Source: Tubulanus polymorphus (lineage: Eukaryota; Nemertea; Palaeonemertea; Tubulaniformes; Tubulanidae). From it: a stretch of 64,000 bases of DNA. Where the stretch lies: NCBI RefSeq assembly GCF_964204645.1, contig NC_134025.1:28364001-28428000 (forward strand), read 5' to 3'. The translations under genes were made by a program, and so were the position numbers. The notes under the pieces were generated by a model. The model was not told the origin of the DNA and searched no databases. It worked only from the letters and a program-made list of their open reading frames with translations. Below, piece after piece: positions 36,476 through 44,100 of the stretch. Within the stretch, counting starts at the first letter, position 1. Each line of letters starts with the position of its first letter.

Positions 36476-38934
36476 ATGTTGTCTGAAACGTGTACACCTT
36501 GTTCATCTCCGCATCCTGTTTTGCCACCGATAATTCGTAATGAAAGAGATCGTTTATTTCTACAATCGTTGACAAAAGATATCGACCACGAATTGCGAAA
36601 AATATCAGACCATCATCCGGACCAGAGATACGCATTGTTCAGAAAATCATTCGATAAGGTAGGTAAATTTTCTTGACCAATATGATTAAAGAATCCAAAA
36701 ATTTCAATTCACGGTCTCCTTAATATGGCTCTTATTTTAGGTGATTGACCATGTCACTGCTTATAAACCAATACTGACAGCTATTCAGGCAGAATATGAA
36801 GAATGTATCGAAACTATCATTCGTGGAAACCAACAAGCTTTCTATCTGAATGGTAAATTGAAAGCTTTGGCTTCAGAACCGACAACAATGAGAAACTACA
36901 AAAAACGAATCGATGAATTAGAGCAAAGGTAAAAAAGACGTCTGAATGATTACAGAACATATTTACTTTATTCACTTGTATTCTACTTAATGAATAATTG
37001 TAATGAATAATTGGATTGAATTATCAATTCAGAATATCCGTTATTCGCGATAATAATCAACAATTGGCAGGAGAAATAGAAGATTTGAGTAGAATCAAAG
37101 AGGAAAGAGAATATCGTAGAAAACAGGTAGAAGAGCCACCGAAAAAAATTGTAAAGAAGGACAGCAGACAAATCCCTGGTATTTATAGGTAGTCTATTTA
37201 CTGACAGAGATTTAATTTGTATATTTGTGTAAAGGTATTGGGTAATCTTTTATTTTAGGATTAACAATTGAGCAGAATACAGATATAGAACTTTTGAAAA
37301 AAGAGCTGACAAAAGTCGACAAACAGTTGAAAGAATTGCGCCATTCGGAAAGAGCTAAATATCAACCGCGTGAAATCAAAGAATCTTTGAGAGTTCAACT
37401 TTCTTACAAAGCTGATTTGAGGGATACGTTGATTAATGATGATGAATATCTGAAAGAACGTATGAACAAATTGAAAGTAGCTCTAGAAGCAGCACGTGTT
37501 TATAATGAAATATGTCCTCCGCATCAGACTATCGGGGAAGTGATTACTGCAGCGTTACATAGAGATGTAGTTTCTGAAGCTCAGAAGAAGGACCAGGAGA
37601 GTAAAGATCAAGAGGAAAAAGGTATTTGTCAATTGATATCTTATAATTTTGATTTCTTTGAAGAAAATCCATCCTGATTTAGATGTTTGTTATTTCATTC
37701 AGCGAGACTCGGTCCCGCTCAACTGAGGCGAGATACAGTCTTGTCTGAACGCGAGACTTCGTTAGCTTCTGTTGCTACATTCGAAGATGATGATCCTGCC
37801 AGGGAACAAGAAGCTGATGTTATACTAGACTATATCGAGAAATTTAATGAACTATTCGATAACGAAAAATACGAAGCCGCTGCCATTCATGCTGCTAATA
37901 GTCCTAAAGGCATTCTTAGAAACATGGAAACACTGCTGAAGTTTAAAGGTTTGCCGATTTCCTTACATTAATATGTTTTCATTCATCGATATAATGCAAA
38001 TTTTGACTTGTTCATTATTCTATAGTTGCAGTTGCAAAAGATGGTGAAAGAGAGCCACTTTTAGCATACTGCGATGCCATCATGTCATCAGTGCTGGCTA
38101 TAGGAGTTATTCCTAGTGAAGAAATGTGTATTGAATGTGTACAAACTGCGTTAGCGAATAACAGATTAGATTTACTTTTACACTGGATTGCTCAAGATAG
38201 GTTGGTTTGATAAACTCTACAGAGAAAATTGTTTTAAAGATTTCTCGAACCTAATCTCGAACGGCGTTTATTTCTCAGGTTGAAAATGACCGAACAGGTT
38301 GGAGATCTTGTTTGTAAAAGATGCATGTGTCAAGGATTGTGTTCATGTGGCTGTCAGGGAATGGCACAGAAGGTTTATACTGCGGTAGCCGCTCATGACA
38401 AAGTTATAGGATGTATGTTACATCAGGGTAGAGTGATTAGTGCAGTAGAATACGCCGAACGTAAAGCTTCATACGATCAGAATAAATACGCTGAATTATT
38501 AGAGGCATATCCGAGTCCACAGTTAGCACAGGCGTTATTCAGACCGTTCAATGATGGAAGTCGCCATCTTCCACTAGGAGTTGTTGTCCGTATACTCCTA
38601 CATACAAACCTTTACGAACAAGGATTCCTGTTACTCAAAGATGTTATCACGAATCGAGAAGGTAGAGTTTTAATCGTGCTACAAAAATTATATCATCTTT
38701 CAATTTTTCATGAATTAAATACTCCTTTTGCTTACAGGTTCAGATGACCTGCATAACCTAATTTTTGAAGATAATGTGACAACGGAAAATGAATGGATTG
38801 ATATAGCGAATAAATGTGAAAATCATGGATTTGAGAATATCTCAGTTGAACTCCTCGCTGCAATAACTGTGACATCAGCAATGACATTAGCAGCTTCGAT
38901 TATAGACTACACTAAACGAACATTCGATGTCTGA
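36476..38934 (+). CDS. CLHC1: Clathrin heavy chain linker domain-containing protein 1
   Basis: Eight exons join in phase to about 626 residues: 36476-36658, 36741-36928, 37033-37178, 37259-37621, 37703-37948, 38026-38200, 38279-38661, 38738-38934. The N-terminal half is charged and coiled-coil-like. From about residue 332 the protein resembles the clathrin heavy-chain linker: KFNELFDNEKYEAAAIHAAN then SPKGILRNMETL, matching the clathrin KFNQLFE-x-AAK-AANAPKGILR pattern, followed by helical repeats. This arrangement and length fit CLHC1 (human about 586 residues). A Cys cluster CKRCMCQGLCSCGCQG (exon 7) looks unusual and could bind metal. The function of CLHC1 is poorly known. The gene is compact, with introns of about 75-100 bases. 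The ATG at 36476 is the first in this frame and is followed by conserved-looking sequence. Confidence 0.85.
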
Positions 38935-39502
38935 AACTAATATAATGAGGCTTCGATGTCCTTCATATGTTCTTTCTGCTGTCATGATATGGTTGATCTA
39001 CTTTTTGTCATAAATATCTGTGATTTTATTTATTTTACAAAAGATGATGATTGCCCGAGAAATCTTCTTTTGTTCTAATCTATTCGGATGTAAAAACGAA
39101 GTATATTGCACTGTTTTGTAGTATTATGAACTAATAAAGTGTCTGTAACTGCTGTTATTCTTATGGCTGTTATGTATATATTTTCGTCTCTGGGGACTCG
39201 TCCTATAGTATACTGGTAGTATAAGTCTGAAGATTCACTGATTCAGATTCAGTACAAGACACTGAATCTCCTTCGCGATTCATGATTAAATCAACACAAA
39301 CCATTTGCTTTAGAAATACATAGATAAGTTTATTTACGCAATAATGAGAATGAGTAACATCATTAAGTTACAAAATGAAGACCGCGGGATATGATTGCGG
39401 CCACATTTTTGCGAATACCCGGCAGTGACCGCGGCCGGCTTTCATGCCCGACCCTCTGTGGCATGCGAGGGGTATTCAAGGATGTGGCGCCATCTGTAAA
39501 TA
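38935..39502. other. CLHC1 3' flank and acylphosphatase 5' region
   Basis: An AATAAA at 39133-39138 is a good CLHC1 poly(A) signal. The remaining 360 bases before the acylphosphatase ATG must hold its promoter; a G+C-richer patch at 39380-39490 is the likeliest site. No coding exon is seen. Confidence 0.5.
39133..39138 (+). terminator. Poly(A) signal of CLHC1
   Basis: AATAAA about 200 bases past the CLHC1 stop, followed by T/G-rich DNA. Confidence 0.55.
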
Positions 39503-40243
39503 ATGGCTTCTGTCAGAAATGTATTGAAATCTGTCGATTTTGAGGTTTTTGGACGTGTACAAGGTATCTGTGCTATAATAATATTCACTCTTATCAGCAC
39601 TTAGGTTCATGAGATTATATAACTAGGTTTAGAGAAAATATTTGATGAAGGAAAAAGGCTTCAAGAGGGTAGCTGCTCTCATTAATTTCCAAACTTTATT
39701 GCTTCCCAACTGACTTACTTTACTTAACTGATCGTTAACCCTTTCCCAATTTTCTATCCACAGGTGTTTTCTTTAGAAAGGTGAGTTAAGCGATTATCTT
39801 TTTTCTTTCGCATAATCTATCATCCAATCTATAAGTAGTACGGTATTTTCACATAGTCAGTAGCAGGTAATCAGAGTGCACACATGCGCATAACATAGGC
39901 CTATATTGGTCCAAAATAATCTTATACATTTCTTTTCAGTATACACGGAAAACTGCTCAGCAACATGGGTTAGTTGGATGGGTGATGAATACTTCAGCTG
40001 GCACGGTCAAAGGCCAAGTTCAAGGGCCTGAAGAAAAACTCATTTTGATGTAAGTTTATTAGATACATCTAGGGTAGATCGGTCTCCTATGATTGTCTAT
40101 TTCAGACATTTTTCTATTGTAGGAAAGATTGGCTTAAAAATAAAGGAAGTCCTTCATCCTGGATTAAAGAGTGTTTATTTTCTAATGAAAGAAATATCAC
40201 AAATTTAGAATATGAAAATTTCTTTGTTAAAGGTGGCTGGTGA
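39503..40243 (+). CDS. ACYP: Acylphosphatase, isoform A (proximal last exon)
   Basis: Acylphosphatase is a small soluble enzyme that hydrolyses carboxyl-phosphate bonds of acylphosphates. Exons 39503-39563, 39764-39780, 39940-40049 and 40123-40243 give 102 residues, close to the usual 98-100. The signature GRVQGVFFRKYT spans three exons and contains the catalytic Arg. [20 protein letters not shown] contains the catalytic Asn. The second exon is only 17 bases. The last exon begins [13 protein letters not shown] and ends with a stop whose last A opens an AATAAA (40243-40249 overlap region), so it can act as its own terminal exon. A second version of the last exon follows at 40394. The start is the first ATG and gives a family-typical N-terminus. 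Confidence 0.93.
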
Positions 40244-40249
40244 AATAAA
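40244..40249 (+). terminator. Poly(A) signal of acylphosphatase isoform A
   Basis: AATAAA begins immediately after the TGA stop of the proximal last exon, leaving almost no 3'UTR before the signal. Confidence 0.45.
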
Positions 40250-40393
40250 TCCTCAAAACTAAAAATAGCATTTTGCGTTGTATAGAAATTCGCATTATCA
40301 TAAATATTTATTGTTTGAATGGAATTTGTTACACTTTTCATGTTTACATTTGTTACGATTGTTATACCATGTAGCATTTTGCATGTTTTGCAG

Positions 40394-40508
40394 GAAAACT
40401 TGGTTGAAGACGAAAGGCAGTCCTAAATCCCGTATAGATAAATGTACATTTACCAATTTAAGGACATTAACTGCACTTGAATTCTCATCATTTGACATCA
40501 AAAAGTAA
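40394..40508 (+). CDS. ACYP: Alternative last exon of acylphosphatase (isoform B)
   Basis: The exon opens after TTTTGCAG with the same phase as 40123-40243 and codes KTWLKTKGSPKSRIDKC through to a stop at 40506-40508. It aligns with the proximal exon along its whole length (WLK-x-KGSP-x-S-x-I-x-x-C, then L-x-x-LE-x-x-x-F). Spliced to 39940-40049 it gives a 100-residue enzyme with the same catalytic Arg and Asn. It has its own AATAAA at 40637-40642. The pair looks like a tandem exon duplication giving two C-termini. Splicing of one exon to the other would not make sense because each carries a stop. Confidence 0.88.
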
Positions 40509-40636
40509 TGCATATAATCAGTAAAATGTAGTGCACTTGCATGAAAAGTTCTTCATCAATTTTCCTGCCATTTCAATCCCATTTATGTGAATGAAAAAGT
40601 TTTGTTAAAAATATAATTTTATAGTTTTACTGAGAG

Positions 40637-40642
40637 AATAAA
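40637..40642 (+). terminator. Poly(A) signal of acylphosphatase isoform B
   Basis: AATAAA about 130 bases past the distal stop. The opposing YLPM1 signal lies only about 180 bases further on. Confidence 0.5.
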
Positions 40643-41169: not shown

Positions 41170-44100
41170 TCAGATAAACTTAGTTCTGTTGAGAGCCTTG
41201 TGGGCAAAATCATCATCAGTGATTTTATCCCAGTCGCTTTGTCCCATGCCGATCATGAATCCAATTTCACGTTTTCGTACTTGATCTTTGCCCTCTTCGA
41301 TATCAGCCCAACGAACCTATAAAAGTAAATCCATCATTAAGTTAACCTGAATAATCCGAAAGAGTTTGAATAATAAACATCGACCAATTCAGGAGTTCTA
41401 TGTACCCTCTTCTTTCCAGGTTCATTAGTAGATGTTCTCGACGTGTAGTCGCTTAACTTCAGAAACTCTTCAAGTCCAGCAGGAGAATCTTCACGTTTTC
41501 TCTTCATGTTGAACCCATCCAGTCGATCTGAAATTATCAAGCGCCCAATACTCAGAAACCTGTTCGCAAATTGTTTACACAAAGCAATAGATGTGTTTGA
41601 AAATTAGATAGTAATTAAATAGTTCACTTCGACAACCACAGAAGTTTTAAAGCTTTTTACAAATTATAGATTTAAGTTGAAAACAGTATCTAAATGTACG
41701 TCGATAGTAACAAATGAGCGAATAAAGTCAAATAAATCAAAACAAGCTTCTGATGCGAATTCAACAACTTTTATTTATGATAGAAATCTTATCAATGATA
41801 TACAATGTATATGTATTTTCAGATGGAAAGTCCCAAATAAAAAAGCGCGCTCATCTTTCGCTAACCAAGACGCGTATTCAGATTAAAATGTGCTCCTTCC
41901 CTAACTCCAAGCTCGCCGAAAACAACACATTATTCTCCTCTAGTTGAGCAAGTTTTTGTGATGATGCTCAGGCTCCTGTGGAGTTTCTAGCTCTTTACTG
42001 GGTATATGAATTAGTGCTCCTTAGAATCACAATTAAATAAATGATTGTTGCGCAGTACAAAAATAAATAGAACCTTTCGTTTATGTTATATATTTGCATC
42101 TTGTATAATGATTATAATCATTATACGCTGAAATTGCAGGTGGATTAACATTCCTTACAGCAATCATGATTGTTAAAAGGTATAATCACAGGGTTTTTGA
42201 GACTTGATCTCTTTGTGTCAACAGAATAGTGGCAAGAACAGCACATGGGGTCAGGTGAATTTTACACCCATAAAACTTTTTTTTTAGCCCAGAACATTAA
42301 ACTTATCGATTCATTTGCCATGAATGTAATAGGAGCATTTTAGAATGTAAAAATATAATGCGGTTATGCGATCTCTCGTGCCTGCGTGGGATCTAGGGAA
42401 CTTCGATAACCTACGCAAGTGGCAACCAGGTCATTCACCTACTGAAGATGTCCTGTGCCCATGGAGGCCACAGGTAACATACAAATAAATATATAGTGGA
42501 ATGAGAAATACATATTTCTCACACGCCAGTTGAACCTCTGTTCTATTATGTGTTAGTCATGTGCTCAATAAACATTTCTCTGCTGTATAAGGTACTATTG
42601 CCGCACTTCCCCGAAATTTGATTTTGGGGTTCACTGCAGGCCACATTATTGTTTTCAACTTACGGCACTGCCATTGTGCCAGTTCATGCAGATACCTATC
42701 AGTGTGCGAAAAATCATGAAGATACAGTAACCACTGAGTTAAATCAGCTTGTTACCGCTATTAATAACATAGATCTGCAGTACGTATGTATCATTAGAAT
42801 TAGTCTTCCTGATGAGATCGATCTTTTGCCGCCAGGATATATTTTATTCATTAAGAATATATGGTTTTTAAATGGTTTATTTGGTTTGTTTACATTACAA
42901 ACACATAATATTCCCCTGTGTTTGACAGAACAAAGAACCATTTCACAACAAAGGCATAATGTACTGGAACATCAATTAGAGCTTCATTTCGTTATAAAAC
43001 TTGACCACCTTTTTAATGTACTGGTGTGTATTTCTTATGTGATAGTGGTCTCCTTTTTTCAAGATAGAATAGTTACTTCAGACCAACCAACAAACACTGC
43101 AAATTTCACGCGAACACAATTCATAATCAACCATCAGGTAAAAACTGATGTCAAAAGTAAAATCATGAAGAAAATGCACTTTGTTTACTATGCACCAAAT
43201 ATCAGAACTAACAACATGTTCATCGTATGTAATTGTGACTGATTCACAGCACAGCTGGGTAAAGCAAGAGGAGAGGAATAGCTTTTTAAACTACCGGTAT
43301 AAATACAAAAGCTCTCAATTAAAAAACTGAGGTAAAACCTCAAAATATTTAATGAGACGAGACATCACAACATGTTTCAAATATTTGAAATTCCTTGCTT
43401 CAAGTTTCAATTGACAGTTTTCATATTTCAATATAGATTTTTCATTTTGTACATGGCTATATTAAAATCTATAACTCAAAGATCTAATACTAGATATTTC
43501 CATTTTCCTAGCCTGTACTCGTTTTATTGAAACGGTTACTTTTTCGTTGAGTAGCAATTCTCAAATTTGTTCTGAATATACAGCAGCAACCAGTATCACC
43601 GGCTTATCACAACCACCGACGGTAGGTTCTATATTCGACGTTTTAAAAACAAAATCACACTTTGCATTTCAATCTTCCTTCGAAAACATTTCAAGCACGC
43701 TTAATATTCACACTTCTGATAATGGTTTCGACTTGAAACGAACCATCGCGCAATCAGTTGTAATTTCAGTATCGTGTATATTACTGGTATATCATTTATT
43801 GTCTGTCACATCAAAATAATCGCGATTGTATTCAAACTGCTCACAAAAAACCCCCCTGATCGTGGAAACAGTGAAAGAAAAATAAAGACAGGCTTTTGAA
43901 GAGATTTATTAAATATATAAAGTGGATATAATAATTTTCTCTAATCTACTAATGATGTTGTACAACACCATAGTTATGTGGATGAAAAAAGCTGCATTTG
44001 GGTTCAGTAAAATGGTACCACTTCCTGTAAAATGTATGACAACATAATATCAATGAGTTCTACTCACCCAACTTAGCCTCTGATGTATCCAATTCCCACT

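Follow-up and report, generated by a model that had tools for sequence, protein, structure and literature searches.

Few enzymes are as small as acylphosphatase, which serves as a standard model in studies of folding and catalysis, yet whose physiological role is still debated. The acylphosphatase gene of the nemertean Tubulanus polymorphus raises the question of whether a single locus can encode two such enzymes by exchanging its last coding exon. The window that we analyzed comprises 64,000 nucleotides of contig NC_134025.1 (assembly GCF_964204645.1). On its plus strand it carries an acylphosphatase gene whose shared exons 1-3, at 39503-40049, can be completed by one or the other of a pair of homologous last exons, which we have named 4a and 4b (Table 1).

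Table 1. Features of the acylphosphatase gene; positions are those of the window, and a slash marks the exon border.
Feature	Positions	Strand	Description
Coding exon 1	39503-39563	+	20 residues and the first base of G; donor AAG/GTATCT; matches the ACYP1/ACYP2 N-terminus
Microexon 2	39764-39780	+	17 nt; codes G-VFFRK including the catalytic Arg R25; acceptor CCACAG, donor AAG/GTGAGT
Exon 3	39940-40049	+	37 residues including the catalytic Asn N43; donor GAT/GTAAGT; exit phase 2
Last exon 4a	40123-40243	+	39 aa; stop TGA 40241-40243
Last exon 4b	40394-40508	+	37 aa KTWLKTKGSPKSRIDKCTFTNLRTLTALEFSSFDIKK; stop TAA 40506-40508
Proximal AATAAA	40244-40249	+	immediately 3' of the 4a stop; GU/U-rich element of ordinary strength at ~40272-40283
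Distal AATAAA	40637-40642	+	128 bases past the 4b stop; strong GU-rich element TGGTTGTTGTGT

In both spliced models the reading frame was kept at all joins and the introns showed GT...AG borders throughout, giving an isoform A (exons 1-3 and 4a) of 102 aa and an isoform B (exons 1-3 and 4b) of 100 aa. From the exon 3 donor, the intron measures 73 bases to 4a and 344 bases to 4b; both last exons are entered in phase 2, and the spacer between them is 150 bases long. A preliminary description of this DNA had reported two terminal exons of equal entry phase, each with its own acceptor, stop and AATAAA, and its coordinates proved right to the base. Adjacent and homologous, similar in length, entered in the same phase and each provided with its own acceptor and stop, 4a and 4b are predicted to be tandem-duplicated alternative last exons. 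As a separate observation, the catalytic arginine lies within the 17-nt microexon (39764-39780), whose skipping leads to the loss of the reading frame; this frameshift could provide an on/off splice control.

Regarding the encoded proteins, isoforms A and B scored 79.1 and 87.0 bits, respectively, against Pfam PF00708, both above the family cut-off of 22.5 bits, and exons 1-3 alone reached 65.2 bits. The gain given by the last exon was 13.9 bits for 4a and 21.8 bits for 4b, and the equivalent stretches of horse ACYP2 and human ACYP1 gave 19.9 and 19.7 bits. In a search of the PDB, each isoform matched 28 acylphosphatase chains over nearly its full length, with 1aps as the best match for both (1.8e-33 for A and 4.4e-34 for B). 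In the alignment, R25 and N43 correspond to R23 and N41 of the horse (muscle) AcP, to which the GxVQGVxFR phosphate loop is near-identical, and the catalytic roles of Arg-23 and Asn-41 in acylphosphatase have been described (PMC9490001). Both isoforms thus belong to the acylphosphatase family (PF00708, animal ACYP), and acylphosphatase activity is predicted for each of them. The earlier claims that both last exons complete an intact enzyme, and that its catalytic Arg and Asn come from shared exons, agree with these results.

We then considered whether the pair of exons reflects one gene or an artefact. In a six-frame search of the whole 268-Mb assembly, the peptide of each last exon matched only itself and its partner, with 53% identity over 36 aa and an E-value of ~1e-5 in both directions. 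A horse ACYP2 query matched exon 3, 4a and 4b and nothing else in the assembly, and searches with Pfam and with exon 3 gave a single acylphosphatase locus. No further acylphosphatase locus was found in the 268-Mb assembly, although gaps and the exon-by-exon search may hide a very diverged second gene. Retrocopies of the gene, which would have been evidence of transcripts, were not found in the assembly either. At the DNA level, the likeness of 4a and 4b is no longer clear, so that the pair is neither a recent nor an assembly duplicate, and no similarity is left between the non-coding DNA flanking the two exons. The presence of two similar exons 150 bases apart could suggest a duplication of assembly or haplotype origin, but the saturated synonymous divergence and the dissimilar flanking non-coding DNA exclude alleles and duplicated reads, and we give this explanation practically no credit.

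The two exons share 19 of 36 residues, and their 36 aligned codons carry differences at the first position in 16 cases, at the second in 11 and at the third in 20 (pS 0.79, which is saturated, and pN 0.35). A codon model rejected omega = 1 (2dlnL 16.5) and also omega = 0.5, which roughly represents the case of a single drifting copy (2dlnL 10.9), with the caveat that a pairwise omega is weak taken alone, as the fit runs to saturation and allows no point estimate to be quoted. Because of this saturation, we added simulations of neutral drift: at 1 substitution per site, 0/1000 runs kept the 19/36 identity without a stop, and at 0.5 substitution per site 0.9-1.3% did so. Besides, three vertebrate enzymes agree at 17 exon-4 residues, of which 4a keeps 14 and 4b 12. 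Since omega = 1 was rejected and simulated drift failed to preserve a copy this well, we conclude that both exons have been selected as protein for long. These comparisons indicate that the duplication is old and that both copies have been under protein selection for most of the time since. The proposal of two intact alternative C-terminal halves on one catalytic core is supported, with one locus in the assembly and both exons constrained.

Such tests concern past constraint, and a recent silencing of one copy, leaving no inactivating mutations, may be compatible with them. One last exon would then be in use and the other would be a relic that recently fell out of use. Exon 4a is the one with more unusual changes, namely R74W, D76K (the Asp being common to the vertebrate enzymes) and a GGW tail, and it adds fewer Pfam bits (13.9 versus 21.8). 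However, frame, acceptor and stop are intact in both 4a and 4b, and long neutral drift is excluded by the simulations together with the pairwise omega tests, so we consider a relic improbable.

With both exons constrained as protein, we turned to how they would be joined to the shared exons. Scored with consensus weights entered by hand, the acceptors gave 8.9 bits (4a) and 9.8 bits (4b), which places both among the best 1.3% of the AGs of the window; as they score alike, neither is obviously weak. Reading from 4a on towards 4b meets the 4a stop, and the two proteins therefore exclude each other, barring the use of a donor within 4a. Two donor-like sites do lie at the end of 4a, 40232 scoring 6.4 and 40239 scoring 5.4, on the same scale that gives 5.4 for the exon 1 donor. 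The site at 40239 is in phase with 4b and its use would fuse both C-terminal halves. Exon 4a could accordingly be also, or only, an internal exon whose donor at 40232 or 40239 is joined to 4b, yielding either a protein with a short GKLG tail or one that carries both C-terminal halves in frame. We find this very unlikely: the donor-like scores are only on a par with the weakest of the constitutive donors, a duplicated half-fold would result in the fused product, and the stop of 4a comes about where the enzyme should end. Two further elements were set aside, a cryptic acceptor before 40106, whose use would leave the acylphosphatase frame, and a 76% complementary inverted repeat with one arm at the exon 3 donor (40043-40063) and the other in 4b (40483-40503), which we considered unremarkable on informal assessment.

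It had also been suggested that polyadenylation governs the choice between the exons, and here the picture is mixed. The AATAAA abutting the 4a stop speaks for it, as chance would place this hexamer within 6 nt of a given point in 0.7% of cases and within 30 nt in 3.7%. On the other hand, by a simple score devised for this analysis, the downstream GU/U element of this proximal signal is ordinary, being matched at 16% of random positions, while that of the distal signal at 40637 is matched at 0.2%, and of the AATAAA sites in the window, the distal one belongs to roughly the best 1%. Judged from these motifs, polyadenylation control of the choice is possible.

The same signals bear on where the 4a mRNA would end. 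If the choice were purely one between two competing 3' splice sites, 4a transcripts would run on across the spacer and 4b, use the strong signal at 40637 and have 4b as 3' UTR. The 4a stop would in that case fall in the final exon, a position from which no decay is expected. The very strong distal signal and the ordinary proximal one favor a shared 3' end, as does its description for exon 10 of oyster AOX (PMC5589949), but the AATAAA stands immediately after the 4a stop, and no other AATAAA or ATTAAA occurs from 40244 to 40637. We lean towards an end of the 4a mRNA at its own AATAAA (40244) and regard the run through 4b as conceivable but less than probable. An own proximal end and a shared distal end give the same two proteins here.

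According to these results, we propose that an animal acylphosphatase gene present at a single locus had its last coding exon duplicated in tandem long ago, and that the exon 3 donor (40049) would be spliced to 4a or to 4b, yielding an enzyme of 102 or 100 aa. The isoforms would have a common Arg/Asn core and would differ in helix 2, the helix-strand loop, strands 4 and 5 and the C-terminal end. For this reading as a whole, that is, an old last-exon duplication with alternative splicing of 4a and 4b to give two acylphosphatases, our confidence is high, and it is very likely that both mRNAs are made.

Exon 4 supplies most of helix 2, the loop between helix 2 and strand 4, and the last two strands of the acylphosphatase fold. 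The isoforms differ at 17 residues of the 36-residue exon overlap, five of them in the helix 2-strand 4 loop (67, 72, 74, 76 and 77), and at 74, 76 and 77 isoform A has W, K and E where isoform B has R, D and K. The last residue of isoform B is Lys, exactly where human ACYP1 has K99, and isoform A has Gly there and then a further Gly-Trp; the net charge of the exon 4 part is +1 in A and +6 in B. Loop 67-77 adjoins the active site (PMC9490001), and the C-terminal end of human ACYP1 lies by the active site as well (PMC3057955). When the last residue of human ACYP1, K99, is changed to Gly, the C-terminal carboxylate bridges to Arg-23, and the activation energy goes from 37.6 to 52.5 kJ/mol (PMC3057955). 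With the loop and C-terminal differences lying beside the active site, the hypothesis that the exon swap tunes this site, in activity or in temperature response, becomes concrete, and by analogy with human ACYP1 we infer that it may do so. A full kinetic or thermal switch, in which the exchanged loop and the exchanged residue neighboring the catalytic Arg give two acylphosphatases of different activation energy or substrate preference deployed by tissue, stage or temperature, is a speculative extension that we hold to be rather unlikely. One gene that swaps the half-fold bordering the active site while the catalytic Arg and Asn stay in place would amount to nature's own paired experiment on the role of the C-terminal half.

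Two neighboring genes were also observed. Upstream, at 37246-38934 on the plus strand, a gene resembles, by reading of its sequence, a vesicle protein of the VPS18 type in its C-terminal part, with no Pfam match above cut-off found for this region; an AATAAA lies at 39133. Downstream, at 41170-41600 on the minus strand, there is a convergent gene with exons reading KKR...VRWADIEEGKDQVRKREIGFMIGMGQSDWDKITDDDFAHKALNRTKF, for which no Pfam match was found and which we take to resemble the C-terminus of YLPM1 (PP1-binding). As human YLPM1 and ACYP1 presumably both lie at 14q24.3, the YLPM1-like gene beside the acylphosphatase gene may represent an old linkage.

Vertebrate ACYP1 and ACYP2 are likewise two forms of the same enzyme family differing along the chain, but they are separate genes, whereas here one gene has two last exons. 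The preliminary description had equated the exchanged exon with the region of the fold that distinguishes ACYP1 from ACYP2, and this was not supported, since the divergence is about equal in the exon 1-3 part: human ACYP1 and horse ACYP2 are identical at 34/57 residues (60%) in that part and at 19/35 (54%) in the exon-4 part. Exon 4a showed 20/35 identities (57%) to horse ACYP2 and 14/35 (40%) to human ACYP1, and 4b showed 17/35 (49%) to both alike, 35 residues being too few for a tree or for ordering the exon duplication and the vertebrate gene duplication. We rejected 4a and 4b as one-to-one counterparts (orthologues) of the ACYP2 and ACYP1 last exons, given that 4b is equidistant and that the shared exons 1-3 are nearer ACYP2 than ACYP1.

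Finally, we compared the gene with known systems. Alternative last exons that are homologous to one another form a well-known class of arrangement, and a search of an open-access library gave no earlier account of ACYP last exons in alternative or duplicated form, so acylphosphatase would be a new gene for this class within that library. A human set comprises 236 tandem duplicated exon substitution events, mostly ancient, of which 77 are C-terminal (PMC9741552); these also exchange a homologous C-terminal region through a tandem duplicated exon, and 'ACYP' is absent from the main text describing this set. Human CAPZB (capping protein beta) is alike in having homologous 3'-terminal exons with multiple poly(A) sites (PMC3228551), although it is a different protein and its exons come from annotation, while the acylphosphatase ones are predicted. 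The closest described case is exon 10 of oyster AOX (PMC5589949), where the last coding exon of a single-copy enzyme gene is likewise tandemly duplicated, with own stops. The oyster gene gives two enzymes with different C-terminal parts, as the acylphosphatase gene would, and in both the proximal copy has more unusual changes. AOX is nevertheless a different gene, and both its transcripts have been demonstrated, whereas those of the acylphosphatase gene are predicted from genomic sequence. The AOX copies are 63-66% alike in DNA, and 4a and 4b are more diverged. In the oyster, the choice is one of alternative 3' splice sites, upstream or downstream (PMC5589949), and the mRNA of the proximal exon includes both exons, while in the acylphosphatase gene an AATAAA follows the first stop. 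To these known C-terminal exon swaps, the acylphosphatase gene would add an old and constrained case.
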